Program-made: the position numbers and the translations under genes | Assembly (NCBI GenBank): GCA_018827375.1 | Contig: JAHJYW010000010.1 | Span: 1 to 64,000, forward strand | Origin: Alphaproteobacteria bacterium | GTDB lineage: Bacteria; Pseudomonadota; Alphaproteobacteria; Caulobacterales; Hyphomonadaceae | Direction: 5' to 3' | DNA: 64,000 bases | The notes under the pieces: model-generated | What the model was told of the DNA's origin: nothing | The model's input: only the letters and a program-made list of their open reading frames with translations | The model's database searches: none | Shown here: positions 123 to 23,660 of the stretch, in pieces | Numbering within the stretch: position 1 is the first letter of the stretch | How the letters are laid out: each line of letters begins with the position of its first letter

Positions 123-1265
123 TCAGCGCCCGAGATGGCTGTTGAAGAAGTCGATCATAACCTCGTAGGCGTCACGTGATTCCGGGACGTCCGGATTGTA
201 GAAGAAGCCGTGGAACATGCCTTCCCAGACGTGCAGGTCAGCCTCAACTCCGAGTTTCACGAGGCGGCTATGAGTGTAGACAGCTGCGCTCATTTCAAAG
301 CCGCGTGTGCCCGTAATGATTTGCGTTGGCGGAAAGCGGGACAAAATCGCATCGGACTCGGTCGGGGCGACAAGGGGATCATAGGGGTCTGCTTCTGACA
401 GGTATGGCATGAGCGAGCGTGCCGGTTTGTCGGACGCTGGCTCATCTGTTGGAGGCGCGATGAAGCGTCCCTCGCCAATGGCAGTGGCGGTATAATTGGC
501 GTCGCCGCCGAAGCCTTTCACTGGCGGGGCGGCGCCGGCGCAATAGATGCCGATAGCGCCGGGCATCGGAAGGTCGTGTGCCTGGAACCAGGCCATGGAC
601 ATGCCAGTCAGCATGCCGCCAGCTGAGCAGCCGTAGATGCCGATATTTTCTGGCGCATAGGTTTTCAGCAGCTCAGTATACACCTTGGCGACATCTTCGC
701 TGGCGGCCGGGAACTTGTATTCAGGAGCCTGGCGATAATCCACAGCAACGACACGGAAGCCGCCAAGCGATGCAAGCGGCACTGATTCCAGTTCAGCGCA
801 GGCGGGCCAGCAGGTCATGAAGCCGCCGCCATGCAGATCAATCAGGACGCGGCCTTGTTGCTCGGCGGAGACGCCACCAACGGGTGTGTAATCATAGACG
901 TGGATGCCGCCGATGCTGGTGTCTATCTTGCTAACCGGGAAGAGCTCCGCCTGCCTGTCCATGTAGGTCTTCAGGAACATGGGCGCGCCGATCTCCTCGA
1001 CGTTCTTCAGGAGTTCCGGATTCTGCATCGTGACCAGGTGATCGGTAAGATAGGCCTTGCCTTCGGGGCTGAGATAGTCGGACACGGGAACAGACATGGC
1101 GGGCACGAGAACAGTGCCGTCAGGCTGGACGACAACTTTGCTGCTAGGGGGCGGCGTCTCGGCTGGCGTGCTGGCGCATGCCGCAATGGCCATCACAGAA
1201 AGCGCCATCGCGCAGGCGACTGCGAGACGGCCGGGTTTTCGTTGCGAGATCGGCATTGTATTCAT
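123..1265 (-). CDS. Exported alpha/beta-hydrolase esterase, lipoprotein
   Basis: This is a 380-aa hydrolase of the hormone-sensitive-lipase type that probably cleaves short acyl esters in the periplasm or at the outer membrane. The N-terminus has a basic, hydrophobic leader ending in a lipobox (AIAAC, Cys30). The oxyanion motif HGGG is at residues 145-148 and the nucleophile elbow GCSAG at 212-216 (Ser214), and a late HGFF supplies a candidate catalytic His. The usual elbow is GDSAG, so Cys at the second position is uncommon. It follows the sugar transporter gene by 38 bp on the same strand and probably shares its LacI-type promoter. The family is clear; the substrate, taken here to be an acylated sugar, is inferred from context only. 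Confidence 0.88.
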   Translation of the reverse strand: MNTMPISQRKPGRLAVACAMALSVMAIAACASTPAETPPPSSKVVVQPDGTVLVPAMSVPVSDYLSPEGKAYLTDHLVTMQNPELLKNVEEIGAPMFLKTYMDRQAELFPVSKIDTSIGGIHVYDYTPVGGVSAEQQGRVLIDLHGGGFMTCWPACAELESVPLASLGGFRVVAVDYRQAPEYKFPAASEDVAKVYTELLKTYAPENIGIYGCSAGGMLTGMSMAWFQAHDLPMPGAIGIYCAGAAPPVKGFGGDANYTATAIGEGRFIAPPTDEPASDKPARSLMPYLSEADPYDPLVAPTESDAILSRFPPTQIITGTRGFEMSAAVYTHSRLVKLGVEADLHVWEGMFHGFFYNPDVPESRDAYEVMIDFFNSHLGR

Positions 1266-1303
1266 TTCTCTACTCCCTGACGTGATTATGAGATTCTCGG
1301 ACT

Positions 1304-2680
1304 TCAGTCTTCGCCTGACATGGCGGCGCCGTCAGCAGTGGCCACTTCAGTCTTGACCCACCAGACGGCCGCCGCAGCGCAGAACATGCAGACGCCGCAC
1401 AGGCGCAGGACATTGCGGGCGTCACCGCCGAGCAGCGATTCGTAATAGAAGGGCAGGGTGGCGGCGAGGAGCAACATCGGGATTACAATCATCATGTTGA
1501 AAATGCCCATGTACACGCCCGTACGGTCTGGCGGGATGGCATTCGCGAGGATAATGTAGGGATTGCCCATGATGGAGGCCCAGCCGATGCCGATGCCGAT
1601 GGCGGGCAGGAACAGCATCCACTTCTCCGAGGCGAAAGGCAGGCTGAACATGCCGATACCTGCCAAGATGAGGCAGAAGGCATGAATGCGATGCGCGCCG
1701 AACCGTTTTGCAAGCGGGACCATGGCGAAGGCGAGGACGAAGCCCAGTCCGTTGTAGAAGGCAGCCATCTCGCCATTGGCAAGAACCGCTGAGCGGAACC
1801 CGTCCGATACGGCATCTGATGTGCTGAACACCGAGCGGCCGATCGAGTAGACGACATAGGCCCAGTAAGCGGCCATCGCATACCACTGGAAGAGGCTCAT
1901 AACAGCCAGTTTCCGCATGGCGATGGGCATCTCAAGGATGGCTTGCCAGATCTCTTTGAAAACCGGGAGGAAGCCTTTCGGCTTGGCGTCTATGGCGGCC
2001 TCTTCCTGAGGAGTCAGCGGCAGTTCCGGTACGCGGATAATGGACCAGAGAATGGTTGTGACGGACAGGAATGCACCTATCATGAAAGCGTAGCGTGTAA
2101 CGTAGGGAATGTTGTGGCTGTCGATGGCGTTCATGTTCATGCCGAGCACGTAGACCATGAAGGACGGTGACAGGAAGGCCAGCATCTGGGCGAGCCCTGT
2201 AAATGCGCTCTGGGTCAGAAAGCCGAGTTGTCGCTGCTCTGGTTCAAGACGATCGCTGACATAGGCCCTGTAAGGCTCCATCGTGATGTTGTTGCCGGCA
2301 TCTAGGATCCAGAGCAGGCTGGCCGCCATCAGGATCGACGAACTGAGAGGCATGAAGAACAGGCCCAGCGAACATAGGATGGCGCCAAAGATGAAATAGG
2401 GGGTGCGCCGGCCCCAGCGCGATTTGGTCTTGTCGCTCAACGCACCGATGATGGGCTGGACGATCAGACCGGTCATGGGTCCAGCCAATGTCAGAATGGG
2501 GAGCGCCGCTTCATTTGCCCCAAGATAGGAATAGATCGGGCTCATGTTGCCCTGCTGCAAGCCAAAGCTGAACTGCAGACCTAGGAAGCCTAGATTCATT
2601 TCCAGGATGCGCAAGACGCTGATGTGCGGTCGCGGAATGACCCTTTCGTATGCGGGCCTGGTGCCTGTAGACTGAACCAT
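1304..2680 (-). CDS. SLC45/GPH-type MFS sugar transporter (sucrose-like)
   Basis: This 458-aa inner-membrane permease has about 12 hydrophobic segments and resembles the SLC45/GPH sucrose-maltoside carriers, such as SuxC of the Xanthomonas sucrose locus. Visible family features are the early LGLQFSFGLQQGNMSPIY helix and the cytoplasmic loop GALSDKTKSRWGRRTPY. The start at 2680 is preferred over open frame further upstream because GGGAGGA sits 5-6 nt before that ATG; an earlier ATG at 2743 has no ribosome binding site. A promoter (-35 TTGTGT, 17 bp, -10 TATAAG) abuts the CAATCGATTG operator. With the divergent fructokinase and downstream GH68 enzyme, sucrose or a fructoside is the likely cargo. 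Confidence 0.88.
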   Translation of the reverse strand: MVQSTGTRPAYERVIPRPHISVLRILEMNLGFLGLQFSFGLQQGNMSPIYSYLGANEAALPILTLAGPMTGLIVQPIIGALSDKTKSRWGRRTPYFIFGAILCSLGLFFMPLSSSILMAASLLWILDAGNNITMEPYRAYVSDRLEPEQRQLGFLTQSAFTGLAQMLAFLSPSFMVYVLGMNMNAIDSHNIPYVTRYAFMIGAFLSVTTILWSIIRVPELPLTPQEEAAIDAKPKGFLPVFKEIWQAILEMPIAMRKLAVMSLFQWYAMAAYWAYVVYSIGRSVFSTSDAVSDGFRSAVLANGEMAAFYNGLGFVLAFAMVPLAKRFGAHRIHAFCLILAGIGMFSLPFASEKWMLFLPAIGIGIGWASIMGNPYIILANAIPPDRTGVYMGIFNMMIVIPMLLLAATLPFYYESLLGGDARNVLRLCGVCMFCAAAAVWWVKTEVATADGAAMSGED

Positions 2681-2729: not shown

Positions 2730-2768
2730 CTTATAGGAGCCATATTTGCGTCACACAACAATCGATTG
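2730..2768 (-). promoter_or_regulatory. LacI-type operator and promoter between transporter and fructokinase genes
   Basis: The perfect 10-bp palindrome CAATCGATTG lies at 2759-2768. On the minus strand it is directly followed by TTGTGT (2758-2753), a 17-bp spacer and TATAAG (2735-2730), a credible sigma-70 promoter for the transporter gene. The site is also 45 bp upstream of the fructokinase start on the other strand, so one operator could control both directions. Assignment to the LacI regulator at 6991-8007 is inferred from recurrence of the same palindrome at three other promoters in this locus. Confidence 0.75.
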
Positions 2769-2813: not shown

Positions 2814-3716
2814 ATGTCTAAACAGAATACTTTTTTGGTGGGCGGCGTGGATGGCGGCGGAACCACATTCAAATGCTGCATCTCCACGCCTGAGGGTGAA
2901 ATACTGCGGTCGGAACGCTTTGTCACGGCAGGGCCGGAAGACACGATAGACGCCTGTGCCGATTTCTTTGCGCGCTGTACCGCCAGCGGCCAGCCCGCCC
3001 AAGCTATTGGCATTGCCTGTTTTGGTCCAATCGAGATTGATCCTCAGTCCGCTAACTATGGGTCCATCCTGAATACGCCTAAGCTTGGCTGGAGCGGATT
3101 CAATGTCAGGGATGAGTTGGCCCTGCGGACGGGCCTGCCGGTTTCTGTCGATACGGATGTGAATGGCGCGCTGGCGGCCGAAATGGCCTGGGGCGCAGCG
3201 CGCGAGGCCCGCAGCGCCGTGTATGTAACTGTTGGAACGGGAATTGGTGCGGGTATATACGCCAATGGGGACTTCCTTGGGCGCCCGACACATCCGGAAT
3301 TCGGTCATATCCGTGTGACGCGCCATCGGGATGATATCTATTCCGGTGCTTGCAGCTTTCACGGCGATTGCCTCGAGGGGCTGACGAGTGCGCGGGCGGT
3401 AGAGGCGCGGTTCGGTCCTCCTGAGCTAATGGCGCCGGATCATCCTGGCTGGGACATCGTTGCCTGCTATTTGGCGCAGGCCTGCATCTCGCTGACACTG
3501 ACCGTGCGCCCTGAAAAAATCGTGTTGGGTGGGGGATTGCTCCTGGCGCCAGGCCTGATCGATCGTATCCACGAGCAGTATACCGCCATGATGAATGGCT
3601 ATCTCGACCTGCCGGACTCGGCAGCGGCGCAATTTATCGTTCTCCCGGGCCTCGGCGACAATGCAGGTCTGTTGGGTGGCGCCCAATTGGCGCTGAAGAG
3701 CGTGGCGGGTCAATGA
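2814..3716 (+). CDS. ROK-family fructokinase
   Basis: This 300-aa ROK kinase most likely phosphorylates fructose to fructose-6-phosphate in the cytoplasm. The N-terminal phosphate loop reads GVDGGGTTFK. The central segment has the fructokinase-type signature: THPEFGHI, followed by a zinc-binding cluster with Cys180, His183 and Cys186 in ACSFHGDCLEG. That cluster separates fructokinases from the CGCxGCxE form of glucokinase and NagC proteins. A Shine-Dalgarno-like GGGAG precedes the ATG. The gene overlaps the next one by 4 bp (ATGA), so the two are co-translated. Its place between a sugar permease and a GH68 enzyme supports catabolism of fructose released from a fructoside. Confidence 0.9.
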   Translation: MSKQNTFLVGGVDGGGTTFKCCISTPEGEILRSERFVTAGPEDTIDACADFFARCTASGQPAQAIGIACFGPIEIDPQSANYGSILNTPKLGWSGFNVRDELALRTGLPVSVDTDVNGALAAEMAWGAAREARSAVYVTVGTGIGAGIYANGDFLGRPTHPEFGHIRVTRHRDDIYSGACSFHGDCLEGLTSARAVEARFGPPELMAPDHPGWDIVACYLAQACISLTLTVRPEKIVLGGGLLLAPGLIDRIHEQYTAMMNGYLDLPDSAAAQFIVLPGLGDNAGLLGGAQLALKSVAGQ

Positions 3717-4594
3717 CGCTGACGACGGAGCAGTTGACGCTAGAGGCATGGTCGAAGGGTGAACAGGTGTTCCTTTGGCCGGGTGACCAGCTGGGAGGTG
3801 GGTTTGTTGCGTCTGAGTTGCCGGTCGGATGGCCGGATGCCCAGCTACGTAATATCGTGCAGCCCTATGTGCGTGTTTTCCGACCGGATAATCCGAACGG
3901 ACGCAACCTGCTCGTCATTCCCGGCGGCGCCTATACATTCATTTCCGTAGCCAATGAGGGGCTTGATGTTGCCCGGTCAATGACGGCCAAGGGCTATACG
4001 GTTTTTGTCCTTGTGCACCGACTGCCCGGTGAGGGGTGGGACCAGCGATCCGAGGTCGCGCTTCAGGATGCGCGGCGCGCGCTGGTGCTGATTGGCGAGA
4101 TGGCGACAACGCTCGGTACGGATCCTTCGCAAGTGCATGTTATCGGGTTTTCCGCTGGTGGGCATCTCGCCGCGTCGCTTGCCACGCGGCGGGTGGACCG
4201 AGGAGATGGGCCAGTCCTGCGCTCGCTCGGGCTTATTTACCCCGTAATTTCGCACGAGAAACAGATTGGGCATGCCCTGTCCACGCAAAGCCTGCTGGGC
4301 GACACGCCTTCGGCGGACATGATCGCGCTGCACTCGCCTGCGGAGCATGTTTCGCCAGATACGCCGCCCGGATTTTTCGTGCATGCCCTCGATGATGTTG
4401 ATGTGCCATCCGAGAACAGCCTGCTCATGGTGAGGGCCATGCACGCCGCCGGTCGCCCGATCGCGCTACATCTCTTCGAAGCAGGCGGTCATGGCTTTGG
4501 CCTCGGCGATCCGCACCTGCCGGTGAGGCAGTGGCTGGCGTTTTACTGTGAGTGGCTGGACCGAAGCGATACAAGACCAAAAAGTGCAACGTGA
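3713..4594 (+). CDS. Alpha/beta-hydrolase esterase (cytoplasmic, acetyl-esterase type)
   Basis: This 293-aa alpha/beta hydrolase shows no signal peptide, so it should act in the cytoplasm. The oxyanion region is PGGAY (70-74), the nucleophile elbow GFSAGG (Ser147), the acid probably lies in DDVDVP, and the catalytic His in GGHGFG. This layout matches bacterial acetylxylan/acetyl esterase-like hydrolases. It overlaps the fructokinase gene by 4 bp and is followed after 34 bp by another esterase gene. A cytoplasmic deacylase coupled to a fructokinase suggests that some ester groups are still present when the sugar enters the cell. The substrate is not shown by the sequence. Confidence 0.87.
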   Translation: MTLTTEQLTLEAWSKGEQVFLWPGDQLGGGFVASELPVGWPDAQLRNIVQPYVRVFRPDNPNGRNLLVIPGGAYTFISVANEGLDVARSMTAKGYTVFVLVHRLPGEGWDQRSEVALQDARRALVLIGEMATTLGTDPSQVHVIGFSAGGHLAASLATRRVDRGDGPVLRSLGLIYPVISHEKQIGHALSTQSLLGDTPSADMIALHSPAEHVSPDTPPGFFVHALDDVDVPSENSLLMVRAMHAAGRPIALHLFEAGGHGFGLGDPHLPVRQWLAFYCEWLDRSDTRPKSAT

Positions 4595-4628: not shown

Positions 4629-5702
4629 ATGGTCGATTTCAACAGACGGCAGTTCGCCCTGCTGGGCGGCATGACATTGCTTGGCACGCTTGCGGCCGGG
4701 TCGCTCGGGGCATGTGCTTCTGCGCCTGCAGCGGTTTCCGCCCCTGATCTTAGTATGGTCGATCCCGAATTGCGTGAGGCTGCCACGAGGATTCTGGAAA
4801 TGTCCTCCCAGGGTGGCGGATACTCGGATGAAACCCTGCCAGCAATGCGTGAGCGCGGCGCATCCTTTGTGAGGCCTTTCCTGCCAGATGTGCCGGTGCT
4901 TGAGAGGAAAATACCGGGTGCAACTGGCATGCCGGATGTGACTGTTTTCGTGGTCAATGGCGGTGGTGACACGCCGCGACCGGCCATCCTTCACACCCAT
5001 GGCGGCGGACATATCCTCGGGTCGGCAAAAGGCGAGGTGCCTTACCTCCAGGCAATGGCGCGCGAACTCGATTGCGTGGTTGTCACCGTTGCGTACCGCC
5101 TAGCGCCAGAAACACGCTATGCTGGATCGGTAGAGGATAATTATGCGGGTCTGCTCTGGATGTACAAGAATGCCGTAGCGCTCGGCATCGACAGATCGCG
5201 CATTGCCCTTTTAGGCGAAAGTGCCGGGGGCACGCATGCGGCGCTTCTGGCGATTGCGGCGCGTGATCGCGGCGAAGTGCCTGTGATTTTTCAAGCCCTG
5301 ATATACCCGATGCTGGACGACAGAACCGGCAGCACGCGGTCCGTGCCGCCCTTCATCGGCGCGATAGGGTGGGATGCAAAATCCAACCGCTATGGCTGGT
5401 CGTCATTCTTGGGACAGGAAGCTGGCAGCGCCAGTGTGCCTGTTGCTGGTGTGCCTGCGCGCGTGGCCGATCTTGCGGGATTGCCGCCAGCCTTTATCAG
5501 TGTCGGCGCACTCGACCTCTTCGTGTCGGAAGACATCCAGTATGCGAACCGCCTCATAGAGGCCGCTGTTCCGACGGAGTTGCTGGTGGTGCCAGGGGCG
5601 TTCCACGGGTTTGACCGTATCGGTGCAGAGGCTGCCGTTTCCAAGCGCTTTGATGCCGCCAAAATGGCTGCCTTACGGCGAGCCTTTGAGCAGCCTGCCT
5701 GA
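4629..5702 (+). CDS. Tat-type exported alpha/beta-hydrolase lipoprotein esterase
   Basis: This 357-aa hormone-sensitive-lipase-like esterase has a twin-arginine leader (NRRQFALLGG) ending in a lipobox (LGAC, Cys29), so it is probably a folded, lipid-anchored periplasmic enzyme. HGGG is at 124-127 and the nucleophile elbow GESAG has Ser198. The C-terminal DLFVSED and GAFHGFD segments would supply the catalytic acid and His. A purine-rich ribosome binding site (GAGGAGACACAGAGG) precedes the ATG. It is the third gene of the fructokinase operon. Together with the esterase at 123-1265 it gives both arms of the divergent pair an exported esterase. Confidence 0.88.
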   Translation: MVDFNRRQFALLGGMTLLGTLAAGSLGACASAPAAVSAPDLSMVDPELREAATRILEMSSQGGGYSDETLPAMRERGASFVRPFLPDVPVLERKIPGATGMPDVTVFVVNGGGDTPRPAILHTHGGGHILGSAKGEVPYLQAMARELDCVVVTVAYRLAPETRYAGSVEDNYAGLLWMYKNAVALGIDRSRIALLGESAGGTHAALLAIAARDRGEVPVIFQALIYPMLDDRTGSTRSVPPFIGAIGWDAKSNRYGWSSFLGQEAGSASVPVAGVPARVADLAGLPPAFISVGALDLFVSEDIQYANRLIEAAVPTELLVVPGAFHGFDRIGAEAAVSKRFDAAKMAALRRAFEQPA

Positions 5703-5763: not shown

Positions 5764-5779
5764 CAATCGATTGTATAAT
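5764..5779 (+). promoter_or_regulatory. LacI-type operator abutting a -10 box before the GH68 gene
   Basis: A second copy of CAATCGATTG (5764-5773) is immediately followed by a consensus -10 hexamer TATAAT (5774-5779), 68 bp upstream of the GH68 start codon. A bound repressor would cover the promoter spacer. No strong -35 element is visible at the expected distance. Confidence 0.75.
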
Positions 5780-5847: not shown

Positions 5848-6975
5848 ATGAGATCGAAAATAGTAGTAAATGTCCCCGAGGCATCGCCGACGCGCTTTAC
5901 ACAAGGTATCGCGCATCCGGACCTCTGGTTGTGGGACTCGTGGACCTGCAAGTCGGAGGGCAAGGATCACTTGTATTGCCTGGCCTTTGCCCGAAAGGAT
6001 TCGGAGGGGCGTCCGACGTCGCCAGCGCAGAGGAATAATTTTACATTCCACATTCGCCATTTTGAAAGCGAAGATGCGGGCGCGTCTTGGCGGGACTGCG
6101 GTGCGGTCATACAGTCAACGTCGCAGCCGAACGCGACATTAAGTGACAATGTGTGGAGCGGATCGACTCTGAGGGACAGCGATGGTTCGTTCCTGTTTGC
6201 TTATACCGGCCTGCCAAGCGTATCGAAGGACAGGCGGTTTCTTCAGACCATCTGCATCGCTGCCAGTCCCGAACCGGGCCATGTGCCGCGCCTGCCTTTG
6301 GTACCCCTTTCAGACCCGGTGCGCGACTACGATTCCATACGTGCGGCCGGTTATTTCCTTGCCGAACGCGAGACTCTCGGAGAAAATTGCGGTGAATCCG
6401 GCGGGCCGATCCTGGCCTGGCGGGATCCGTTCCTTTTCACACACGGCGACAGAATTCATGCTTTGTGGGCTGCTAAGGCTGGGCCTCTACAGCCGGCTGT
6501 GGCGCATGCGATCCTGCGCCGGGAAGACAATGGGAGCCTGGCCGTTGACCAGTTGCTGCCGCCCATCCTTTTGCCCGATGGTGATACATTTACGCAAGCA
6601 GAGGTTCCCAAGGTCTACTTGGACACGGTCAGGCAGCAATACTGGCTCATCATTTCGGGCTGCAATCGCATTTCCGAAGATCAGCCTGATGATGAAATCG
6701 TGAAGGATCAGCGGTTGTATGTCAGTGAAACCCTGCAGGGGCCCTGGATACCGTATCGAGGGACTACAAGTGTCATACCAGGTATCGAACACCTGTTCGG
6801 CGCCAGTGTCATGGATGCGGACTTTGCTGGAGGGAGGCTTCGTCTGATCGCTCCCTACACAGAAATGGCGGATCCCGCCGTGCAGCTGACATTCGCGCCG
6901 ATTGTGACTGTCACGCTGCCGGATTCTGCACGGGTGGCGGCGCTTCTTGGGAAAAGCCTAGCCGACAGGCCCTAG
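5848..6975 (+). CDS. GH68-type beta-fructofuranosidase (levansucrase/invertase family), cytoplasmic
   Basis: This 375-aa protein carries the GH68 five-bladed propeller signatures in order: WDSW with the nucleophile Asp30, WSGS (103-106), the transition-state-stabilising RDP (Arg192-Asp193-Pro194), and an EVPKV segment with Glu252 in the acid/base position where family members usually have ERP. It should split the fructosyl bond of sucrose or a sucrose derivative. There is no signal peptide, unlike most secreted levansucrases but as in intracellular Zymomonas-type members, so hydrolysis is placed in the cytoplasm. GAAGGA serves as ribosome binding site. The gene converges on the LacI regulator gene. 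Family placement is good; hydrolysis versus transfructosylation cannot be told. Confidence 0.82.
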   Translation: MRSKIVVNVPEASPTRFTQGIAHPDLWLWDSWTCKSEGKDHLYCLAFARKDSEGRPTSPAQRNNFTFHIRHFESEDAGASWRDCGAVIQSTSQPNATLSDNVWSGSTLRDSDGSFLFAYTGLPSVSKDRRFLQTICIAASPEPGHVPRLPLVPLSDPVRDYDSIRAAGYFLAERETLGENCGESGGPILAWRDPFLFTHGDRIHALWAAKAGPLQPAVAHAILRREDNGSLAVDQLLPPILLPDGDTFTQAEVPKVYLDTVRQQYWLIISGCNRISEDQPDDEIVKDQRLYVSETLQGPWIPYRGTTSVIPGIEHLFGASVMDADFAGGRLRLIAPYTEMADPAVQLTFAPIVTVTLPDSARVAALLGKSLADRP

Positions 6976-6990: not shown

Positions 6991-8007
6991 CTAGCGATTA
7001 GGAACGCTGGATTGCCGGACAACGAGTTCGGTATTTGTCAAACGTGACCTAACTCGCTCTCCATTGATCTTTTTCAGGAGCAGGGAGACCAGCAGTTCAC
7101 CGCCTTGCGCAATGTTCTGGTTAATTGTTGTCAGGGCAGGGGTCGAGAGGGCGGACTGGCCGATATTGTCATAACCCACGACACTGACATCATTGGGCAC
7201 ACTCAGCTTGACGGAATGGAGGGCATGGATAGCGGCCATGGCCAGCACGTCCGAGGCCGCAAAGATCGCGTCGAATTCGACGCCGGATTTTGCAAAATCG
7301 ATCACGGCCTTATAAGCTTTGCGGCCACCAAAGTTGACAGGAAGGATGAGGCGCTTGTCATGGGACCGTCTGGCTTTGGTGTGTACCGCGGCAAAGCCAT
7401 CATAGCGCAGCTGCACTTCCGGCAGGGACACATCGCCCAGAAACAGGATCCGTCGTCGACCGACCGAAAAAAGGTGTTCGGCTGCGAGACGACCACCCTT
7501 TTCGTTGTCACTGCCGACAAAGGTGTAACGGTTGTGCGCAAACCGTCCGCCCCAGACCACGACATTCTTGCGCAGGTCACTGGCCTCGTTCAGGCGTTCC
7601 GAGCGGCCGGCCTGCCCGATCACGATCAGGCCATCGGCGCGGCCGGTTTGGAGGAGACGACGTTCAGCAATCTGGCTTTCGGACTGGGGCAGGCTGATCA
7701 CGAGATCATAGCCAGCCCGGGCAGCGGCGTTGGACACGGCGCCTACCATTTCCAGATAGAATGGGTCCGAAATCGTCTGCTCTGATTTGGCGTCGATCGG
7801 GATAACGATCCCGAGCATGTTGCTGGACTGGCGCCGCAGGCTTTGAGCAGAAGCGTTCACGACATAACCGAGTTCATCGGCCAGTTTCATGATGTGGTCC
7901 TTGGTCTTCTGTTTGACCAGGGGGCTATCGGCCAGCGCGCGCGAAACGGTTGAAATATCAACCTCGGCCTGCTTCGCCAGCTCGCTCATGGTTACGCGCT
8001 TGTTCAT
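6991..8007 (-). CDS. LacI-family transcriptional regulator
   Basis: This 338-aa repressor has an N-terminal helix-turn-helix and hinge (MSELAKQAEVDISTVSRALADS) followed by a periplasmic-binding-protein-like effector domain. Its C-terminal half contains typical LacI motifs such as AASDVLAMAAIHAL, VSVVGYDNI and TPALTTI. It is the only local regulator inside the sugar-ester region and the natural candidate to bind the four CAATCGATTG palindromes. No copy of the palindrome is visible in its own upstream region, so it may not be self-regulated. The inducer is probably a sugar of the pathway, such as sucrose or fructose; this is inference. Confidence 0.9.
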   Translation of the reverse strand: MNKRVTMSELAKQAEVDISTVSRALADSPLVKQKTKDHIMKLADELGYVVNASAQSLRRQSSNMLGIVIPIDAKSEQTISDPFYLEMVGAVSNAAARAGYDLVISLPQSESQIAERRLLQTGRADGLIVIGQAGRSERLNEASDLRKNVVVWGGRFAHNRYTFVGSDNEKGGRLAAEHLFSVGRRRILFLGDVSLPEVQLRYDGFAAVHTKARRSHDKRLILPVNFGGRKAYKAVIDFAKSGVEFDAIFAASDVLAMAAIHALHSVKLSVPNDVSVVGYDNIGQSALSTPALTTINQNIAQGGELLVSLLLKKINGERVRSRLTNTELVVRQSSVPNR

Positions 8008-8309: not shown

Positions 8310-9587
8310 TTACCGGAACAAGTCGAGATCAATGGCCTCTGCCATGGCGCGGTAGCCGGCATCCGAGGGGTGAATAGAGTCGCCTGAATTGTATGCCTCA
8401 GCCAGGCGGCCTTCATCGTGAGGATCCCGGATTGCGGCGTCGAAGTCGATGACTGCATCGAAGGCGCCCTCGTTGCGAATCCAGTCATTGACCTCTTGCC
8501 TGATCACTTCCTTTTCATCCGTGGCGTAGCCGGGAAGGAAAGAGCCGAGATCGGGCGTGAGTGTTGCGCCGATGATTGTCACGCCGCGTGCGTGTGCCCG
8601 GTCGATTAGTTGGGAATAGGCTGCGATGATGTCGCTTGTGCCGAGCGTGCGGTATGACCGGGTCATGCCGTTTAGGGTGAGCCCGCTGAGGCCGATATCA
8701 TTTATGCCCTCCATCAGGATGATGTGGGTTACGCCGGGAACGGACAAGGCGTCGCGATCAAATCGGGTGAGGGCACTTTCGCCGAGCACGCCTTCCTCGA
8801 GCAGGCGGTTGCCGCCGATGCCCTGGTTGGAAATCGCGACATTCTCCAGGCCTTCTGTCCGGAAACGGGCTGCCAGATAGTCGGGCCAACCGCGCATAAG
8901 GGGATCGTTGCTTCCATTCCCGTCTGTAATGGAATCACCGAACGCAACGATGACGCGGTCCGCGTCCGGATTGTCGACAAGGACGGCCGTAACGAGGGGG
9001 CGCGCCGCAATGGTTGTCGCGCCTTCAAAGGCCAGGCTGGTTGTTCTGTCATCGCCCGGTAGCATGCTGACCACAAGCTGATTGTCCGCCTGCGGCGGGC
9101 TGACTGGATCGACCAGGTGCAGGGTGATTGCGACAACATCGCCGGCTGCGACGGAAAGGGCCACAGGGTCGCTCCACACCGTTCCTCCGGAGAGCACCGA
9201 GACGCCTGCCTGATCGTTGAAGGCGAGCTTTTGCATCGTGTCAGGCTTGATACCCGTTGCATCACTTAGCGCGATGGTCGCGCCATCTATGGCGAGATAC
9301 GGCACGCTAGGGCCACCCGACATTGTAATGCGGACTGAGTCGCCACCGGCACTGACTCGCATGAGGTAACGCAGGTTGCCCTCAAGTTGCGGCGTGGTCG
9401 CGCCCGGAGGCAGGATTTCAGGCGGGATCGGCGTGGAAGGACTACTTGTCCAGGAGGCAACCCAATGGGCACCGCTGGCAGCAGTTGTCGCGGTGTCCGG
9501 CGCGGCAGTGCAGGCGGCGGCGGCGACAAGCAAGCCGCCTGCGAGCAGTGTTCTCAGGGCTGTGGCGCGAATGGCGACAATGCGCAT
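8310..9587 (-). CDS. SGNH/GDSL esterase, lipoprotein (XynE-like)
   Basis: This 425-aa protein begins with a hydrophobic leader and lipobox (VAAAAC, Cys26), then a domain of about 190 residues of probable beta structure, then an SGNH hydrolase domain. Block I is FGDSITDG (Ser219), the Asn block is MEGINDI, and the catalytic pair is DSIHPSDAGY near the C-terminus. The two-part layout resembles XynE-like carbohydrate esterases. ATG at 9587 was chosen because AAAGGA lies 8 nt upstream; in-frame codons further upstream lack a site. It follows the other SGNH gene by 54 bp and probably shares its promoter. A periplasmic deacetylase of sugar esters is the likely role. Confidence 0.86.
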   Translation of the reverse strand: MRIVAIRATALRTLLAGGLLVAAAACTAAPDTATTAASGAHWVASWTSSPSTPIPPEILPPGATTPQLEGNLRYLMRVSAGGDSVRITMSGGPSVPYLAIDGATIALSDATGIKPDTMQKLAFNDQAGVSVLSGGTVWSDPVALSVAAGDVVAITLHLVDPVSPPQADNQLVVSMLPGDDRTTSLAFEGATTIAARPLVTAVLVDNPDADRVIVAFGDSITDGNGSNDPLMRGWPDYLAARFRTEGLENVAISNQGIGGNRLLEEGVLGESALTRFDRDALSVPGVTHIILMEGINDIGLSGLTLNGMTRSYRTLGTSDIIAAYSQLIDRAHARGVTIIGATLTPDLGSFLPGYATDEKEVIRQEVNDWIRNEGAFDAVIDFDAAIRDPHDEGRLAEAYNSGDSIHPSDAGYRAMAEAIDLDLFR

Positions 9588-9641
9588 GATGGGCATCCTT
9601 TGAAATCCGCGATGCTGTGGCACGGCGGGAATGGGGAGGGG

Positions 9642-10523
9642 CTAGTTGTCCGCCTTCGCGACTGCCTTCTGAATGGCAGCGACGGCATTATCATGCATGG
9701 CGGCATAACCGAGGCGTTGGGGGTGGACGCCGTCATGCGTGTAACCAGTTTGCAACTCTCCCTCTTCGCCGACCAGATCAGCGTAATAGTCGACATAGAT
9801 GCCGCCGATCTCTTCAGCATAGTCCTTGAGCCACTGATTGAGAGCAACGATACGTTCGACAGGCTTGATATCTGCGCGCCAGCCAAAGGATTTCGCAGGT
9901 GGGATGCTAGCCAGGATAACAATGATGTCCTGATTTTGCGCCATGGCTGCCATGGCGCGAATATTGTTCTTGTAGTCCTCGTCGCGCACATAGCCCGTGT
10001 TCTCGGCAAGATCGTTCGTGCCGGCCATGATGTGGACAGCTGTTGGTTGCAGGGCGACTACGTCCTGCCAGAAGCGCGCCACCATCTGCGTGCTCGTTTG
10101 ACCACTAATGCCGCGTCCAATGACGCCATCCGTGAAAAGATCGGCGTCGCCAACAGTCCAGAACTCGGTTATCGAATCGCCCAAGAAGACGACTTTCGGG
10201 CTCGGTTCACCTGAAAGACCCGCATTGGCATTCTTGTATTTACAGACATAGGCCCAGTCGTTTTTCTGGCGATACTTTTCGCCTTCCTGCAGGGTCGCCA
10301 ATTCAGGCGCGCCCATAATGGACTGATGGGTGAAGTTGCTCTCGGGATCGAGCAGATCATAAGCGACACCGGCCATGAAGGTCGTTACAGCAGGATCCTC
10401 GGCTTGGCAGGGTGGCGCGGCGTCTGCCGATTCGGCCTGCGCTTTCGCACCAAAGGGAAGTGCGATGCAGGCGACTGACAGGGCCAGGGTTCTGGGCCAG
10501 CGGATGAACAGATCATTCTTCAC
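9642..10523 (-). CDS. Secreted SGNH/GDSL esterase
   Basis: This 293-aa protein has a cleavable signal peptide (basic start, hydrophobic core, AKA-type cleavage near residue 28) and a single SGNH hydrolase domain. Block I is FLGDSITEFW (Ser117), followed by the Gly block GRGISGQT, the Asn block MAGTNDL and the DGVHP Asp-His pair. An N-terminal segment with two cysteines (39 and 94) could form a disulfide in the periplasm. It is the promoter-proximal gene of a two-esterase operon whose promoter overlaps a LacI-type operator (10639-10648), tying it to the sugar-ester regulon. Confidence 0.87.
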   Translation of the reverse strand: MKNDLFIRWPRTLALSVACIALPFGAKAQAESADAAPPCQAEDPAVTTFMAGVAYDLLDPESNFTHQSIMGAPELATLQEGEKYRQKNDWAYVCKYKNANAGLSGEPSPKVVFLGDSITEFWTVGDADLFTDGVIGRGISGQTSTQMVARFWQDVVALQPTAVHIMAGTNDLAENTGYVRDEDYKNNIRAMAAMAQNQDIIVILASIPPAKSFGWRADIKPVERIVALNQWLKDYAEEIGGIYVDYYADLVGEEGELQTGYTHDGVHPQRLGYAAMHDNAVAAIQKAVAKADN

Positions 10524-10638: not shown

Positions 10639-10673
10639 CAATCGATTGTATTCCGAGGGAGTAATCAGTTCAA
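10639..10673 (-). promoter_or_regulatory. Promoter with embedded LacI-type operator for the SGNH esterase operon
   Basis: On the minus strand TTGAAC (10673-10668), a 17-bp spacer and TACAAT (10650-10645) form a good sigma-70 promoter. The last bases of the -10 box are the first bases of CAATCGATTG (10639-10648), so repressor binding would occlude RNA polymerase. It fires towards the two SGNH esterase genes. Confidence 0.78.
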
Positions 10674-10769
10674 GCATGAAGTCTGATGAGCATGTTGTCC
10701 GAATGGCAACAGTTCCCAAATATTTAGATTTGTGGATTGCGATGCCCAAGGCGCGGTGATAAAGACGGA

Positions 10770-10781
10770 TACAATCGATTG
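10770..10781 (+). promoter_or_regulatory. LacI-type operator overlapping a -10-like box before the TonB receptor gene
   Basis: The fourth CAATCGATTG copy (10772-10781) overlaps a TACAAT hexamer (10770-10775), 36 bp upstream of the receptor start codon. It mirrors the operator 133 bp away in the same divergent region, so two repressor dimers could cooperate or loop. A matching -35 is not obvious. Confidence 0.72.
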
Positions 10782-10816
10782 GATTAATGGTCGAGCTTAA
10801 GGGAGAGGAACAGGCT

Positions 10817-13033
10817 ATGGGCAATGATCGTGTTTGCCGGGATCATCCGGCATCGTCTAAAGATTCATTTCAGAAATCCGCGCGAGTCGCAGGCTTGAAA
10901 TACGCGAGTAGTGCAATTGTGCTGTCGACCGTGGCGGCCATTGCCGTAGCGCCAGCATATGCGCAGGGCGAGACCGCCCCTGCCGCGGATGACAGCGTGC
11001 GCCGCGAGGCCACAATCGTCGTTACCGCCACCAAGACCGGCGCGCAGGCTCTGGAAGACGTGCCATTCGCGATCCAGGCATTCAGTGGTGAATCCCTGAC
11101 AAACCGGAACATTCGTGAAGGCGCAGACCTGATCGAGCTGATTCCAGGCGCATCGCAGGTGCAGCAAATTGGCGCCGGCTATCGTATCTTCGCATTCCGC
11201 GGAACGGGCGCAGGTGGTCCAGTCGGTGACGGCATGGTCGGCTATTACCTGGATGACACACCGTTCGGCGTGCCAAACAACCAGACCGCGCCGCCGCTTC
11301 AGTATTTTGACATCGAGCGCGTCGAGGTCCTTCGCGGTCCGCAGGGCACGCTTTACGGGCAAGGCTCCATGGGGGGCGCCATTATCTATCGCACCAAGAA
11401 CCCTGACCTTCGCGCGTTCACGACCGAAGGCGAAGCGGCCCTGTCGTCGACCGCTGATGCGAGCGATCCAAACTACAGGGTGTCAGCCGCAGTTTCAGTG
11501 CCCTTGATCAAGGACAAGCTGGGCCTGCGCCTCAGCGGCGGTTATGATTTCCAGGCTGGCTACGTGGATGTTTATTCGGACGGCCCGGTCGGCGCGCCGC
11601 GCCTGACCGATGCCAACGATATTGAAGCCAAGAACCTCCAGGCCGTGTTGCTCTGGCAGCCAACTGATGACCTGTCGGTCCGTCTGCGCGCATGGGAATT
11701 CTCAACGGATCAGGACTTCCTGTCTGTCTTCGCCTCCGTCGACCCGCCATATGCGTCGAACCAGGGCGATGTGAACGGGTATGACAAGCGCAAGGCGCGG
11801 TTCTACTCCAACACGATCGACTATGATTTCGGCAATTTTACGCTGACCAACGCGACCAGCTATCAGGAATCGCTGCCCGGCGGGTTCAGCACCGGTCTTG
11901 GACTGGGCCCACCACTCGGAACCGGCGTTCTGAAAAATGGCGGCAATTCCGACAGCTTTGTGAACGAATTCCGCCTTGCGACCAATGGCGACGGACCGTT
12001 CCACTGGGTGGGCGGTCTGTATTACCAGAAGGCCGAGGGCCTTTACACGTTCAACCTCGACTTTCCTTCACTTTCCCTCGACGGCACGACCCTCACTAAA
12101 ACAGAGAACAGTTCGGTCTTTTCCGAAATCAGCTATGACCTGTTTGGCGGAAAACTCGTCCCGCTCGTAGGCCTTCGTTATTATCAGGACACGCGTAGCT
12201 CTGAATCTGTGTCCAACGGTGTCCCCGCTGGCAGTAAGGCAGACCTCGACGCGACGACCTGGCGTGTGAACCTTGCCTATTATCCGACCGAAGACTGGAC
12301 GTTGTTCTTCAATGCCGGCACAGGCTTCCGCAGCGGTATCCTGCAGTCGCAGGCACAGGCCGATGCTGTCATTGCAGACGGGGTCCCAACTGATATCTCT
12401 CTACGTCCGGATGAGCTTCGCAATATTGAAGTCGGTGTGAAGGGATCACTCCTGAACGGCGCACTGAATGTTGCTGCAAGTGTTTATGATGTGAAGTTCA
12501 CCGACTTGCAGGCTGCATTCAATACGTCGATCGGCCTTGCTGCTTTCGCCAACCAGGGTGACGGCAAGACGCAAGGTCTGGACGTTGAGGTCAGGTGGGA
12601 AACGCCTGTTGAAGGGCTCAGCCTGGCGGCAATTGCCAACGTCAACAAGTCGGAATTCACGAACATCGTTCCGGAATTTGCAGCGGCCGACCCACGCGCC
12701 GGGAACGGGCAAACGCTTTACAATACACCACCGCATAATGCGCGGCTTGATCTCGACTATTATCGTCCCCTTGCCGGCAAGTGGGAGCTGAACGCCAACG
12801 CATCAGCCACCTTCAACAATACCGGGAAGAACCAAGACGCAGCTGTGGAACTCATCGGCAACTATGAGCTGTTCGATGCGAGTGTGGGTTTCCGCCGTGA
12901 CAATTACGAGATCAGGCTGTTTGGCGACAACCTGTCTGATGAGCGCGGGCCGACGACCGGAAACGGCGTCACCTTGCTGGCGGGTCCTCGCCCCCGCACC
13001 ATTGGTGTGCAGCTGAGACTACTGACGAATTAA
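10817..13033 (+). CDS. TonB-dependent outer-membrane receptor of the sugar-ester locus
   Basis: This 738-aa receptor has a long signal region ending near APAYAQ, a TonB-box-like ATIVVTATK segment, a plug domain (VPFAIQAF, RGTGAGG, VEVLRGPQGTLYG, GGAIIYRT) and a 22-strand-type barrel. ATG at 10817 was chosen because GGGAGAGGA lies 7 nt upstream. The C-terminus reads QLRLLTN, without the usual terminal aromatic residue. Its promoter carries a LacI-type operator and it lies opposite two secreted esterases, so it probably imports the intact or partly deacylated sugar ester across the outer membrane, as SuxA does for sucrose in Xanthomonas. Confidence 0.9.
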   Translation: MGNDRVCRDHPASSKDSFQKSARVAGLKYASSAIVLSTVAAIAVAPAYAQGETAPAADDSVRREATIVVTATKTGAQALEDVPFAIQAFSGESLTNRNIREGADLIELIPGASQVQQIGAGYRIFAFRGTGAGGPVGDGMVGYYLDDTPFGVPNNQTAPPLQYFDIERVEVLRGPQGTLYGQGSMGGAIIYRTKNPDLRAFTTEGEAALSSTADASDPNYRVSAAVSVPLIKDKLGLRLSGGYDFQAGYVDVYSDGPVGAPRLTDANDIEAKNLQAVLLWQPTDDLSVRLRAWEFSTDQDFLSVFASVDPPYASNQGDVNGYDKRKARFYSNTIDYDFGNFTLTNATSYQESLPGGFSTGLGLGPPLGTGVLKNGGNSDSFVNEFRLATNGDGPFHWVGGLYYQKAEGLYTFNLDFPSLSLDGTTLTKTENSSVFSEISYDLFGGKLVPLVGLRYYQDTRSSESVSNGVPAGSKADLDATTWRVNLAYYPTEDWTLFFNAGTGFRSGILQSQAQADAVIADGVPTDISLRPDELRNIEVGVKGSLLNGALNVAASVYDVKFTDLQAAFNTSIGLAAFANQGDGKTQGLDVEVRWETPVEGLSLAAIANVNKSEFTNIVPEFAAADPRAGNGQTLYNTPPHNARLDLDYYRPLAGKWELNANASATFNNTGKNQDAAVELIGNYELFDASVGFRRDNYEIRLFGDNLSDERGPTTGNGVTLLAGPRPRTIGVQLRLLTN

Positions 13034-13131: not shown

Positions 13132-14868
13132 ATGGCGACCAAGAACAATACGGATGCTGAAGCGGCTGGTTTGGGTATTGCGCGTCGCGCGGTACTCAAG
13201 GGATCAGCACTGCTGGCTGGGAGTCTCGCGACAGCCTGCGCAACAGGCGGCGGGGCCTCTGCAGACCTGGCGCAGACTTCCCCTTCGAAAGAAGAAGAGG
13301 GGCCATCGGTGAGAGCAGGAAAAGATACCGCCATCGTCAATACGCAATCCGGCAAAGTCGCCGGGTTCGTCCGGAATGGCATCTTTGGCTTCAAAGGCAT
13401 ACCATATGGCGCGCCGACCGGCGCGGAGAACCGCTTCCTTCCACCGAAGCCGCCCATAGGATGGGCAGGCGTGCGAAGTTCACGCCAGTACGGACCTGTT
13501 TGCCCGCAGGACAAAGGCATGGGCCGTTTCAATGACGAAGAAGCCTTCATTTTCCAATGGAACGATAGCGTTGAATCTGAAGACTGCCTTCGTCTGAATG
13601 TCTGGACGCCCGGACCCGGGAATACGGCGAAGCGCCCGGTGATGGTCTGGCTTCATGGTGGCGCTTTTGCAGCCGGCTCAGGGCATGACCTGCCGGCCTT
13701 TGATGGCGAGAACCTGTCGCGGCGCGGTGATGTGGTTGTGGTTACGCTCAATCACCGCCTCAATCTGCTTGGCTATCTCGATCTCTCGGCCCATGGCGAC
13801 AAGTACGCGGCGTCCGGCAATGTCGGGATGCTCGACATCGTCGCCGCTCTGCAATGGGTGCGGGACAATATTGAAGGCTTTGGGGGCGACCCAGGGCGCG
13901 TAATGATTTTCGGACAGTCAGGCGGTGGCGCAAAGGTTACGACCTTGATGGGAATGCCAGCCGCGAAGGGACTGTTCCATAGTGCCGCCGTGATGAGCGG
14001 CTCATTCGGAATGGTCAATACGACCGAAAATTCCCACCGGCTGACTGACTTGTTCCTGAAGGAGCTTGGCCTTGACGATGCATCTGTCGAGCAGCTTCAC
14101 ACTTTGCCTTACGACACGCTGCGACGGGCTGGCGATGCCGTGATGCAGCGTGAAAATGCCCCCTTTGACGGCTTTGTCGACATCCGCAAAATTCGCAACA
14201 ATCTCAGTTTTGCGCCGGTTGTTGACGGGGCGGTTCTGCCGGAATGGCCGTTCAGAAAAACGGCTCCGGAGATGTCGGCTGATGTGCCGATGATCATCGG
14301 GACCACGCAGAATGAGTTCGTGACTGGCATCAACAATCCGGATGCGATGTCCATGACGCAAGTGGAGCTGCGCGAACGTGTCGAGCGCGCTTATCCGGGG
14401 CGTACTGAGGCAATCATTGCGGCGTTTCAAGCGACGGCCCCTCAGGCCAAACCATTCGAGCTGTGGTCGCGCATTGCGACTGGCCCCATTCGCGCCGCTG
14501 CCATCCGGCAGGCGGCGGTGAAAGCAGACCTTAACCGCGCGCCAGCTTATCTCTACGAGTTCACATGGCAGACGCCAATCCTGGATGGTCGGCCGATGGC
14601 CTTCCATTGTGCCGATATCCCGTTTGCCTTTTTCAATACCGACCGTTGTGACACGATGTCTGGCGGCGGCGCCGAGGCGCGCAGCCTGAGTGGCAGTATC
14701 GCCGATGCGTTTATCAATCTCGCACGTTCGGGCGATCCCAATCATGCCGGGATAGATGATTGGCCCGTTTATAAGTCTGCAACGTCCTCCACGATGATCT
14801 TCGATCAGGATGTTCGCGTGTCGCTGAATGGCGATGAGGAAGCATTGGCGACGTTGGGCGATCTTTAG
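13132..14868 (+). CDS. Exported type-B carboxylesterase with Tat-like leader
   Basis: This 578-aa carboxylesterase/lipase family protein starts with a twin-arginine-like leader (ARRAVLKGSALLAG) and a weak lipobox at ATAC. The fold markers are present: FKGIPYGAP near the start, EDCLRLNVW, the oxyanion motif HGGAF (His175) and the nucleophile elbow GQSGGG with Ser263. The elbow is usually GESAGG. A late HCADIPFAF segment should contain the catalytic His. A good ribosome binding site (GAGGGAGA) precedes the ATG. It lies 98 bp after the TonB receptor gene and 58 bp before a carboxylate symporter pair, which suggests that it releases small acids that are then imported. Confidence 0.88.
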   Translation: MATKNNTDAEAAGLGIARRAVLKGSALLAGSLATACATGGGASADLAQTSPSKEEEGPSVRAGKDTAIVNTQSGKVAGFVRNGIFGFKGIPYGAPTGAENRFLPPKPPIGWAGVRSSRQYGPVCPQDKGMGRFNDEEAFIFQWNDSVESEDCLRLNVWTPGPGNTAKRPVMVWLHGGAFAAGSGHDLPAFDGENLSRRGDVVVVTLNHRLNLLGYLDLSAHGDKYAASGNVGMLDIVAALQWVRDNIEGFGGDPGRVMIFGQSGGGAKVTTLMGMPAAKGLFHSAAVMSGSFGMVNTTENSHRLTDLFLKELGLDDASVEQLHTLPYDTLRRAGDAVMQRENAPFDGFVDIRKIRNNLSFAPVVDGAVLPEWPFRKTAPEMSADVPMIIGTTQNEFVTGINNPDAMSMTQVELRERVERAYPGRTEAIIAAFQATAPQAKPFELWSRIATGPIRAAAIRQAAVKADLNRAPAYLYEFTWQTPILDGRPMAFHCADIPFAFFNTDRCDTMSGGGAEARSLSGSIADAFINLARSGDPNHAGIDDWPVYKSATSSTMIFDQDVRVSLNGDEEALATLGDL

Positions 14869-15190: not shown

Positions 15191-15191
15191 G

Positions 15192-16970
15192 ATGATGGAT
15201 CAGGACTTCTGGACTTACTTTTTCGTCGTTCTCACGTTTGGCCTCTATATCGGGATCGCGATCTGGGCACGCGCGGGATCGACACAGGATTTCTATGTCG
15301 CCGGACATGATGTGCATCCGACGGTCAACGGCATGGCGACGGCGGCTGACTGGATGTCTGCGGCGTCTTTCCTGTCGATGGCGGGGCTGATTGCTTTTCT
15401 TGGGTATGGCGGCTCAGTATACCTGATGGGCTGGACGGGCGGGTTTGTCCTGTTGGCGCTGTTGCTTGCGCCATTCCTGCGAGAATTTGGGAAGTTTACG
15501 GTGCCTGACTTTGTTGGCGACCGATACTATTCCACGACGGCGCGCGTCATTGCCGTGGTCTGCACCTTGTTCATTTCGTTTACGTATATCGCCGGCCAAA
15601 TGAAGGGCGTCGGTGTCGCGTTTTCCGGCTTCCTGGGCGTGCCGTTTGAGTGGGGAATCGGGATCGGCATGGTGATCGTTTTTATCTATGCCGTGCTCGG
15701 CGGGATGAAGGGCGTCACCTATACGCAAGTGGCACAATATGTCGTGATGATATTTGCCTACACCGTGCCGGCGATCTTCATATCACTGATCATTACGGGT
15801 AATGCGATCCCGCAACTCGGGTTTATATCCAATGTGCGCGGTGACGAGATTTCCATGCTCGACAAGCTGAACAATGTCGTCACGGGGCTCGGCTTTGGTG
15901 CCTATACCGAGACGAGCAAGTCCAAGCTGGATGTGTTTGCCATCACGGGCGCTCTGATGTTTGGCACAGCAGGTCTGCCGCACGTTATTGTGCGTTTCTT
16001 CACTGTGCGCAGCGCCAAGGCGGCGCGCTACTCAGCCGGGTGGGCGCTTGTCTTCATTGCGCTGCTCTATACGACGGCGCCTGCCGTCGGCGCCTTCGCA
16101 CGCCTCAACTTCATCGATACAGTCAATGAGGCGACCTATATCGAGGATGGCGAAAACTATGAGGAATCCGCAGCGGCAATTGTCGCCGACGGCGGTAAGC
16201 CGGTGCCGCTCTGGTACAAGGACTGGGAGAAAACGGGACTTCTGTCTTATGAAGACCTGAACGGCGACGGCATCATGCAGTATCGCGGGCCGAATGCGCC
16301 TGATGGTCTGGAGAACGAGTTAAGTCCCAGCAATGACATCTTCGTGCTGGCTAATCCGCAGATTGCGCAACTGCCTGGTTGGGTGGTCGGGTTGATGGTC
16401 GCCGGTGGTCTTGCCGCGGCACTTTCGACAGCGGCCGGCCTCCTGATGGTGATCTCCTCTGCGGTCAGTCATGACCTGTGCCGGAAGACCCTGTTCAAGG
16501 ACATGAATGACAAGACCGAGCTGAGGGTGGCGCGCGGCGCGGCGGCCTCGGCGGTGTTCGCAGCTGGCCTGCTCGGGATATTCTCGTCCCAGCTCGGGTT
16601 TGTCGCGCAAGTCGTTGCGTTTGCCTTTGGCCTTGCCGCCGCTTCGCTGTTCCCGACCATTTTCCTTGGTATCTTCTGGAAACGAATGAACCGGGAAGGG
16701 GCGATCGCCTCCATGCTTTTCGGACTCGTCTCGACCTTTTCCTACATCGTGTATTTTAAGTTTCTGGACATGGATCCGACGCACTGGTTCCTTGGCGTCT
16801 CGCCCGAAGGGATCGGCTTTGTGTTCATGCTCGGCTCCATCGCCGTCGGCATGGCTGTATCCATGATGAGCCCCGCGCCCCCACAGGAGATCCTGGACAT
16901 CGTTGAGGATATTCGCGTGCCCGGCCTGCGTCAGGCCTTGTCAGCAGAACCGGACGGCGCCGCTCACTAA
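15192..16970 (+). CDS. Sodium:solute symporter (ActP-like short-chain carboxylate permease)
   Basis: This 592-aa SSS-family permease has about 13 transmembrane segments and the family hallmark FYVAGHDVHPTVNGMATAADWMS near the N-terminus. It belongs with the two-component symporters that carry a DUF4212 partner and are related to the acetate permease ActP. A soluble insertion around residues 320-375 contains an EF-hand-like loop (Asp355, Asn357, Asp359, Gly360 in DLNGDG). ATGATG gives two possible starts 3 bp apart. Downstream of an exported esterase, uptake of acetate or another short acid released by deacylation is the likely role; the actual substrate is unproven. Confidence 0.87.
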   Translation: MMDQDFWTYFFVVLTFGLYIGIAIWARAGSTQDFYVAGHDVHPTVNGMATAADWMSAASFLSMAGLIAFLGYGGSVYLMGWTGGFVLLALLLAPFLREFGKFTVPDFVGDRYYSTTARVIAVVCTLFISFTYIAGQMKGVGVAFSGFLGVPFEWGIGIGMVIVFIYAVLGGMKGVTYTQVAQYVVMIFAYTVPAIFISLIITGNAIPQLGFISNVRGDEISMLDKLNNVVTGLGFGAYTETSKSKLDVFAITGALMFGTAGLPHVIVRFFTVRSAKAARYSAGWALVFIALLYTTAPAVGAFARLNFIDTVNEATYIEDGENYEESAAAIVADGGKPVPLWYKDWEKTGLLSYEDLNGDGIMQYRGPNAPDGLENELSPSNDIFVLANPQIAQLPGWVVGLMVAGGLAAALSTAAGLLMVISSAVSHDLCRKTLFKDMNDKTELRVARGAAASAVFAAGLLGIFSSQLGFVAQVVAFAFGLAAASLFPTIFLGIFWKRMNREGAIASMLFGLVSTFSYIVYFKFLDMDPTHWFLGVSPEGIGFVFMLGSIAVGMAVSMMSPAPPQEILDIVEDIRVPGLRQALSAEPDGAAH

Positions 16971-23649: not shown

Positions 23650-23660
23650 GGTCGACGACA

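Follow-up and report, generated by a model that had tools for sequence, protein, structure and literature searches.

The sux locus of Xanthomonas comprises a TonB receptor (suxA), an amylosucrase (suxB), a permease (suxC) and a repressor (suxR) (PMC1790865), and in the text available from that paper the three mentions of "esterase" concern pectin and a general count rather than sux. Here we analyze a Hyphomonas locus in which sucrose genes are interleaved with six esterases. The window, that is, the whole 64-kb stretch of DNA that was analyzed, consists of bases 1-64000 of a 248-kb contig (C46) in a genome of 3.63 Mb; since this contig starts at window base 1, the locus is cut at its left. The interleaving had been noticed in a sequence-only reading of the window, and our analysis confirmed it, with all of the genes involved being real. 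We suggest that the locus is probably a regulon under LacI control that lets the cell feed on acylated sucrose, or on a close fructoside, with deacylation taking place mainly before the inner membrane. This interpretation rests on the gene content, the operator-like sites, the co-occurrence of genes across related loci, and a switch of the outer-membrane receptor.

The locus is arranged as E1 and the permease (minus strand), the kinase, E2 and E3 (plus), the GH68-like gene (GH68L, plus), the LacI gene (minus), SGNH1 and SGNH2 (minus), and the receptor and CE (plus). Judged by the GH68-like protein, the closest named loci are those of Hyphomonas chukchiensis (83% identity) and H. oceanitis (80%). 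A LacI regulator, a sucrose-type permease, a fructokinase and an outer-membrane transporter are all found in this one locus, as in regulons of the sux/scr type. The major facilitator superfamily (MFS) permease (1304..2680, minus; the open reading frame is listed from TTG 2761, and the orthologue alignment starts at ATG 2680) is of the SLC45/SUC sucrose-transporter type, with the plant sucrose transporter SUC1 as its best solved relative (E 1e-17). The ROK fructokinase (2814..3716, plus) has fructokinases as its best solved relatives (E 1e-65), the first glucokinase following at 3e-16, and the LacI-family repressor (6991..8007, minus) is 98.8% identical in the two nearest loci. The receptor (10817..13033, plus; open reading frame from 10787, with the nearest orthologues aligning from about ATG 10817) is TonB-dependent.

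All members of the module named in the sequence-only reading are present, but its GH68 enzyme (5848..6975, plus) is only GH68-like: we use this label because its score against PF02435, 19.3 bits, is below the Pfam gathering score of 27, although some of its homologues among the matches listed carry a precomputed PF02435. The propeller fold and the three catalytic acids (nucleophile Asp, stabiliser Asp and acid/base Glu) could be matched, with Asp30, Asp193 and Glu252 invariant. In canonical GH68 enzymes the acid/base residue is surrounded by an E-x-E-R motif, seen as E-x-E-R-P in two plasmid enzymes discussed below (L116 and L118), while GH68L has Q-x-E-V-P. The protein has no export signal and is a candidate beta-fructosidase that would split sucrose or another fructoside inside the cell.

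Relatives of the permease (70-73% identical) adjoin canonical GH68 genes in two plasmid loci (L120 and L121). In one locus with GH68L and no esterases (L040), a GH13 enzyme (9164-10795) follows an 82% identical relative, which fits a sucrose-like substrate for that permease. Another genome (G218) has two GH68-like loci (L103 and L104), one of them with an MFS protein 73% identical to the window permease. These data bear on whether the substrate could be an acylated fructo-oligosaccharide or a small acetylated fructan piece, which GH68L would trim after uptake. We consider this decidedly unlikely, since the locus has no export-signalled fructanase, GH68L itself lacks an export signal, and the permease is SUC-type, with relatives that adjoin alpha-galactosidase or GH13 genes in sucrose/raffinose-like loci.

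Examination of the promoters revealed that they share an even palindromic operator, CAATCGATTG, as is the case in LacI sucrose regulons. The window contains 4 exact copies as compared to 0.17 expected (none of 100 shuffles reached 4), each at a promoter of the locus: between the permease-E1 and kinase-E2-E3 units (2759..2768), and 5' of GH68L (5764..5773), of SGNH2-SGNH1 (10639..10648) and of receptor-CE (10772..10781). The whole genome holds 9 copies, the remaining 5 all lying within long open reading frames. With a motif matrix trained partly on these same sites, the locus sites scored 19-27 and the next-best window site 12.6, and reversed sequence, used as a control, gave a single match of at least 15 in 1,374,887 bases. 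Gene order places all six esterases 3' of these operators, in the units permease-E1, kinase-E2-E3, SGNH2-SGNH1 and receptor-CE. The motif also precedes the matching units in most relatives: sites are found ahead of the SGNH, E3, ceramidase-like and receptor units in four H. beringensis/polymorpha-type loci, and operator-like sites ahead of both operons in Pseudokordiimonas; in 3 of 19 stretches (L096, L106, L112) there was no matrix site scoring at least 15. The LacI protein is presumably the binder of this operator.

The gene list behind the operators also speaks to a possible role in defense, in which the locus would mainly detoxify sugar esters of an antimicrobial or surfactant nature, the sugar itself being a side benefit. 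Such a role would suit an esterase number above simple need, and plant acylsugars have been termed defensive (PMC7386920); however, the genes that share these operators encode a TonB importer, a permease, a kinase and a sucrase, which indicates feeding, and no efflux gene is found among them, so that a primarily protective function seems very improbable.

To compare gene content, we assembled 39 distinct GH68L loci, including the window (L041 in, L039 out, L033 counted as L102; L095, L099 and L113 excluded because they duplicate L031, L032 and L040), scoring presence by tblastn (E ≤ 1e-10, a single piece spanning at least 25% of the query) within fetched stretches of 5 to 21 kb. Acyl-hydrolases were found in 8 of the 39 loci, seven from Hyphomonas and one from Pseudokordiimonas caeni, and none of the seven acyl-hydrolases was found within the stretch fetched for any of the 31 plain loci. 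E3 and a ceramidase-like gene (see below) occur in all 8 esterase-type loci, the latter on another contig (C7) in the window's genome; E1, SGNH1 and SGNH2 each occur in 7, E2 in 4, and CE in 3, a count affected by the contig end that cuts the H. oceanitis locus. The window's type of receptor (type B, or "esterase-locus" type) was present in 8/8 esterase-type loci versus 0/31 plain loci, L106 having weak partial matches (27-31%), whereas type A was present in 0/8 versus 26/31; of the plain loci without type A (L032, L040, L041, L107, L112), three (L032, L040, L112) are on contigs shorter than 12 kb. The LacI gene was found in 39/39 loci and the kinase in 37/39 (29/31 plain and 8/8 esterase-type, just 36-40% identical in four of the latter). 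The permease family MFS_A appears in both groups, and the SUC type in the window's clade and in the plain loci L040 and L104.

The outer-membrane receptor therefore switches together with the esterases while the repressor, the sucrase and mostly the kinase stay. This pattern fits deacylation before the inner membrane: if it is mainly the steps outside that membrane that change, the substrate would differ from plain sucrose only until it is deacylated. Together with the operator data, the co-occurrence leads us to reject the view that the esterases are chance neighbours of the sucrose genes. On a GH68L tree (39 rows, L039 included and L041 left out), the esterase label needs at least 3 changes, a number as low as which was reached in none of 500 shuffles. 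The window locus seems to combine two cassettes, one shared with Pseudokordiimonas (receptor, CE and E2) and one shared with the H. beringensis/polymorpha-type loci (E1, SGNH1, SGNH2 and a second receptor), with E3 and the ceramidase-like gene found in both.

In H. chukchiensis, E1 is followed by the ceramidase-like gene and the second TonB receptor. In the window's genome these two genes are found at the end of contig C7 (11,371 bases), where they encode proteins 88% identical to the H. chukchiensis ceramidase-like protein and 90% identical to the H. oceanitis receptor; two sites of a wider form of the operator, CAAWCGWTTG, are located at the second receptor and at the ceramidase-like gene. 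The ceramidase-like hydrolase and second receptor on C7 thus also belong to the system. Against PF04734 (cut-off 32.1 bits) the proteins of H. chukchiensis, H. beringensis and Pseudokordiimonas score 73.9, 79.7 and 36.3, in the N-terminal part only, and that of the window's genome (P0121) carries a precomputed PF04734; these matches support membership in the neutral/alkaline ceramidase family and make the protein a candidate hydrolase only. The gene was found in 7 of 61 genomes and, at high identity, in 7 of 398, the same seven genomes each time. A weak relative (36%) in genome G132 is on a different contig from its GH68L, and the gene has many homologues, several of which, among the 120 of 4525 listed (8000 candidates scored), carry the name Sphingomonas. 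A GH3 enzyme, an SMP-30/gluconolactonase and a GntP permease adjoin the second receptor on C7 (L089:2161-7075), with no operator site before them.

The esterases themselves belong to two folds, rather than to the at least three that had been supposed. E1 (123..1265, minus) is a GCSAG-type HSL-family esterase (PF07859) and lipobox lipoprotein, E2 (3713..4594, plus; overlapping the kinase stop by 4 bases) a GFSAG esterase of the PaeX/BD-FAE type, and E3 (4629..5702, plus) a GESAG HSL-family esterase with a twin-arginine and lipobox N-terminus. SGNH1 (8310..9623, minus) is a GDSL esterase with a long N-terminal part and a lipobox, SGNH2 (9642..10523, minus) a secreted GDSL esterase, and CE (13132..14868, plus) a type-B carboxylesterase (PF00135) with a twin-arginine and lipobox N-terminus. 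The active-site motifs GCSAG, GFSAG, GESAG, GQSGG and GDS are conserved across the collected orthologues. Export signals, judged solely from lipobox, twin-arginine and Sec-like N-termini, agree with the earlier count of five exported enzymes (E1, E3, SGNH1, SGNH2 and CE) and one cytoplasmic enzyme (E2). E2 lacks a signal in the window, H. chukchiensis and H. oceanitis, and its homologues in Pseudokordiimonas (L030) and on four Novosphingobium plasmids (L116, L123-L125) have a twin-arginine N-terminus; E2 has apparently changed compartment between the window's clade and its relatives. The nearest solved relatives of SGNH1 are the FjoAcXE-like acetylxylan esterases (7TOG-7TOJ) and 9KR0, and weaker relatives of it (36-40%) occur in 3 of 61 genomes, which have no GH68L match.

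Samples across the class retrieved GH68L and the ceramidase-like gene in 1 of 385 genomes each, the window's own, and the wider spread of the system was therefore found through plasmids. Of 59 plasmid records with GH68, 11 are from Novosphingobium, Sphingobium or Sphingomonas, and the 9 of these that we viewed contain 10 GH68 loci. Their GH68 enzymes are not orthologous to GH68L (best blastp 28%, E 8e-8). Esterases are present in 6 of the 10 loci (L116, L118, L119, L123, L124, L125) and absent from 4 (L120, L121, L122 and L126, the last being unannotated and searched for homologues of the query set only); in L120 there are two GDSL genes at a distance of about 8 kb, and in L122 a short piece of an alpha/beta-hydrolase at 3.6 kb. 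The Novosphingobium EMRT-2 locus combines E1 (60%), two E3 copies (52-53%), E2 (50%), receptor (66%) and CE (51%) with LacI and a canonical GH68 (Pfam 4e-48), and elsewhere on the same plasmid there is a plain GH68-ROK-LacI-receptor locus. Novosphingobium THN1 has a similar locus, in which E1, CE and the receptor are in pieces or partial and GH68 is 71% identical to that of EMRT-2; overall, the E1, E2, E3, CE and receptor genes of the window set are 46-66% identical in these two plasmids.

Other plasmids carry different acyl-hydrolases. Two soil Novosphingobium plasmids (L123, L124) have GH68, LacI, E2, E3 and a relative of the tannase of Sphingobium RAC03; in these, CAAACGTTTG is found ahead of E3 as well as at, or close to, the point where the GH68 frame starts. 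In RAC03 itself (L118), from an algal phycosphere, GH68, ROK, a tannase/feruloyl esterase and SGNH1 stand in a row behind two CAAACGTTTG sites. On plasmid pTomRC1a of Sphingobium RC1 (L119:8135-37501), genes for GH68, fructokinase and LacI cluster with two esterase genes (LipH and one of the beta-lactamase family), several genes for acyl-CoA ligases and dehydrogenases, and one for a receptor that shares 52% identity with the second receptor. RC1 was isolated from tomato roots (PMC10653915), and the terms sucrose, esterase, acyl-CoA and TonB are all absent from the main text of that paper, as available. The RC1 cluster is a candidate for plant acylsugar use, and the gene content of the last two loci suggests that RC1 may handle aliphatic, and RAC03 aromatic, acyl groups.

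In view of these plasmids, one can ask whether an ordinary sucrose regulon has simply acquired general-purpose esterases, algal sucrose acting as a signal for other esters such as lipids or acetylated polysaccharide pieces. The breadth of the esterase families and the occurrence of sucrose as a bacterial osmolyte, measured in a cyanobacterial consortium (PMC5507952), would be compatible with this scenario. Nevertheless, the receptor switches with the esterases across the 39 GH68L loci, the same esterases stand beside non-orthologous sucrases, and 31 loci with the same core have no esterases, all of which make the scenario unlikely. The earlier proposal of one system joining sucrose or fructoside use with deacylation is accordingly backed by the shared operator, by the joint esterase and receptor switch in the 39 loci, and by two Novosphingobium plasmids in which the same set recurs next to a GH68 that is not orthologous.

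The catalytic steps, repressor binding, substrate and inducer that we infer for this acyl-sucrose system would be as follows. One or two TonB receptors would carry the acylated sugar across the outer membrane, and lipoprotein and periplasmic enzymes (E1, E3, SGNH1, SGNH2, CE and the ceramidase-like enzyme of C7) would remove acyl groups. The SUC-type permease would then take in the freed disaccharide, and E2, cytoplasmic in the window's clade, would remove leftover acyl groups. The GH68-like enzyme would cleave the sugar, the fructokinase would trap the fructose, and free sugar or substrate would release the repressor from the operators. The identity of the substrate, sucrose or another fructoside, and of its acyl groups is deduced indirectly. 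For Hyphomonas, where the operators are followed by neither acyl-CoA nor aromatic genes, our guess is acetyl groups or another kind of short chain; longer or aromatic groups seem to be handled by some relatives.

Several observations weigh against this model. The GH68-like enzyme is below the Pfam cut-off and departs from the canonical acid/base motif, and the esterase families are promiscuous, so that family names leave the substrate unfixed. Since E2 has no signal in the window's clade, at least one acyl-hydrolase here does not act ahead of the inner membrane. The receptor switch also has exceptions, as the tannase-bearing loci of the soil Novosphingobium plasmids and RAC03 have esterases and no clear receptor-B orthologue. 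The 8 esterase-type loci do not represent as many independent events; they occupy three places on the tree and may have a single origin. In the two Agrobacterium pAt plasmids viewed out of 21 (L114:8095-11326 and L115:7781-10416), a ceramidase-like relative adjoins an esterase, and the stretches covered list no sucrose gene. Finally, a text search of the literature gave no marine source of acylated sucrose.

Acylated sucrose is familiar mainly from plant defence. The window's bacterium is marine, and relatives of the gene set are found in algal, freshwater, soil and tomato-root bacteria. If the model is true, bacteria of the sea, freshwater and plant roots share a dedicated use of acylated sucrose. 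Somewhat more speculatively, and with the balance slightly against it, acyl-sucrose catabolism might be a distinct and widespread trait, built by repeatedly joining a mobile cassette of acyl-hydrolases and receptor to sucrose regulons that differ from one another, across Hyphomonadales, Kordiimonadales and Sphingomonadales; the marine version would then imply an unrecognised marine pool of acylated sucrose, corresponding to plant acylsugars and to sucrose esters of the phenylpropanoid type. In practical terms, scattered "esterase" annotations become a testable pathway with a natural control, namely loci with the same core that differ in esterases and receptor, and the operator-defined gene list points to the enzymes and receptor worth testing.

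The VC_2705-family sodium/carboxylate symporter gene (15192-16970), which had also been counted as part of the system, was rejected as a member: it has no operator and is found in 20 of 23 same-genus genomes (22 of 37 overall), making it a common Hyphomonas gene just outside the regulon. Further downstream (17069-25384), a BCCT transporter, a TonB receptor, a TPR-sulfotransferase protein, MarR and a BKACE (beta-keto acid cleavage) enzyme may form a separate uptake locus.

The locus resembles Xanthomonas sux, as far as described in the available text of PMC1790865, in joining a receptor, an inner-membrane permease, a sucrose-splitting enzyme and a repressor, and differs from it in that its splitting enzyme is GH68-like rather than of the amylosucrase type, its receptor belongs to another type, and a fructokinase and six to seven acyl-hydrolases are present in addition. 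With the LacI/ScrR/SuxR-type regulons (PMC4052901) it shares LacI, an even CG-centred palindrome, a permease, a hydrolase, a fructokinase and an outer-membrane protein; it differs in its esterases, a word absent from the main text of that paper as available. SGNH1 is similar to the FjoAcXE-like esterases PbeAcXE and CspAcXE in carrying its SGNH domain after a long N-terminal part, and unlike them in its sucrose-gene neighbours and in its block I, which reads GDSI rather than GNSI, the signature given for that group in PMC9105624. The plain GH68L loci of Hyphomonadales and SAR92-type gammaproteobacteria (for example L018, L035 and the Hirschia plasmid L127) have orthologous GH68L, ROK and LacI genes, the operator and, in many, a shared MFS family, but they lack acyl-hydrolases, have receptor type A and in some cases carry a tryptophan-halogenase-like gene; such genes are seen near the receptor in several plain GH68 and GH68L loci (L018:13060-14619, L120:16922-18427, L121:4524-6041 and L127:14273-15796). 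Text searches of the literature, in which few subscription journals were covered, retrieved no description of a bacterial acyl-sucrose locus or esterase-bearing sucrose locus. The core is that of a LacI-run sucrose regulon of a known kind, and the addition of esterases and receptor appears to be new.

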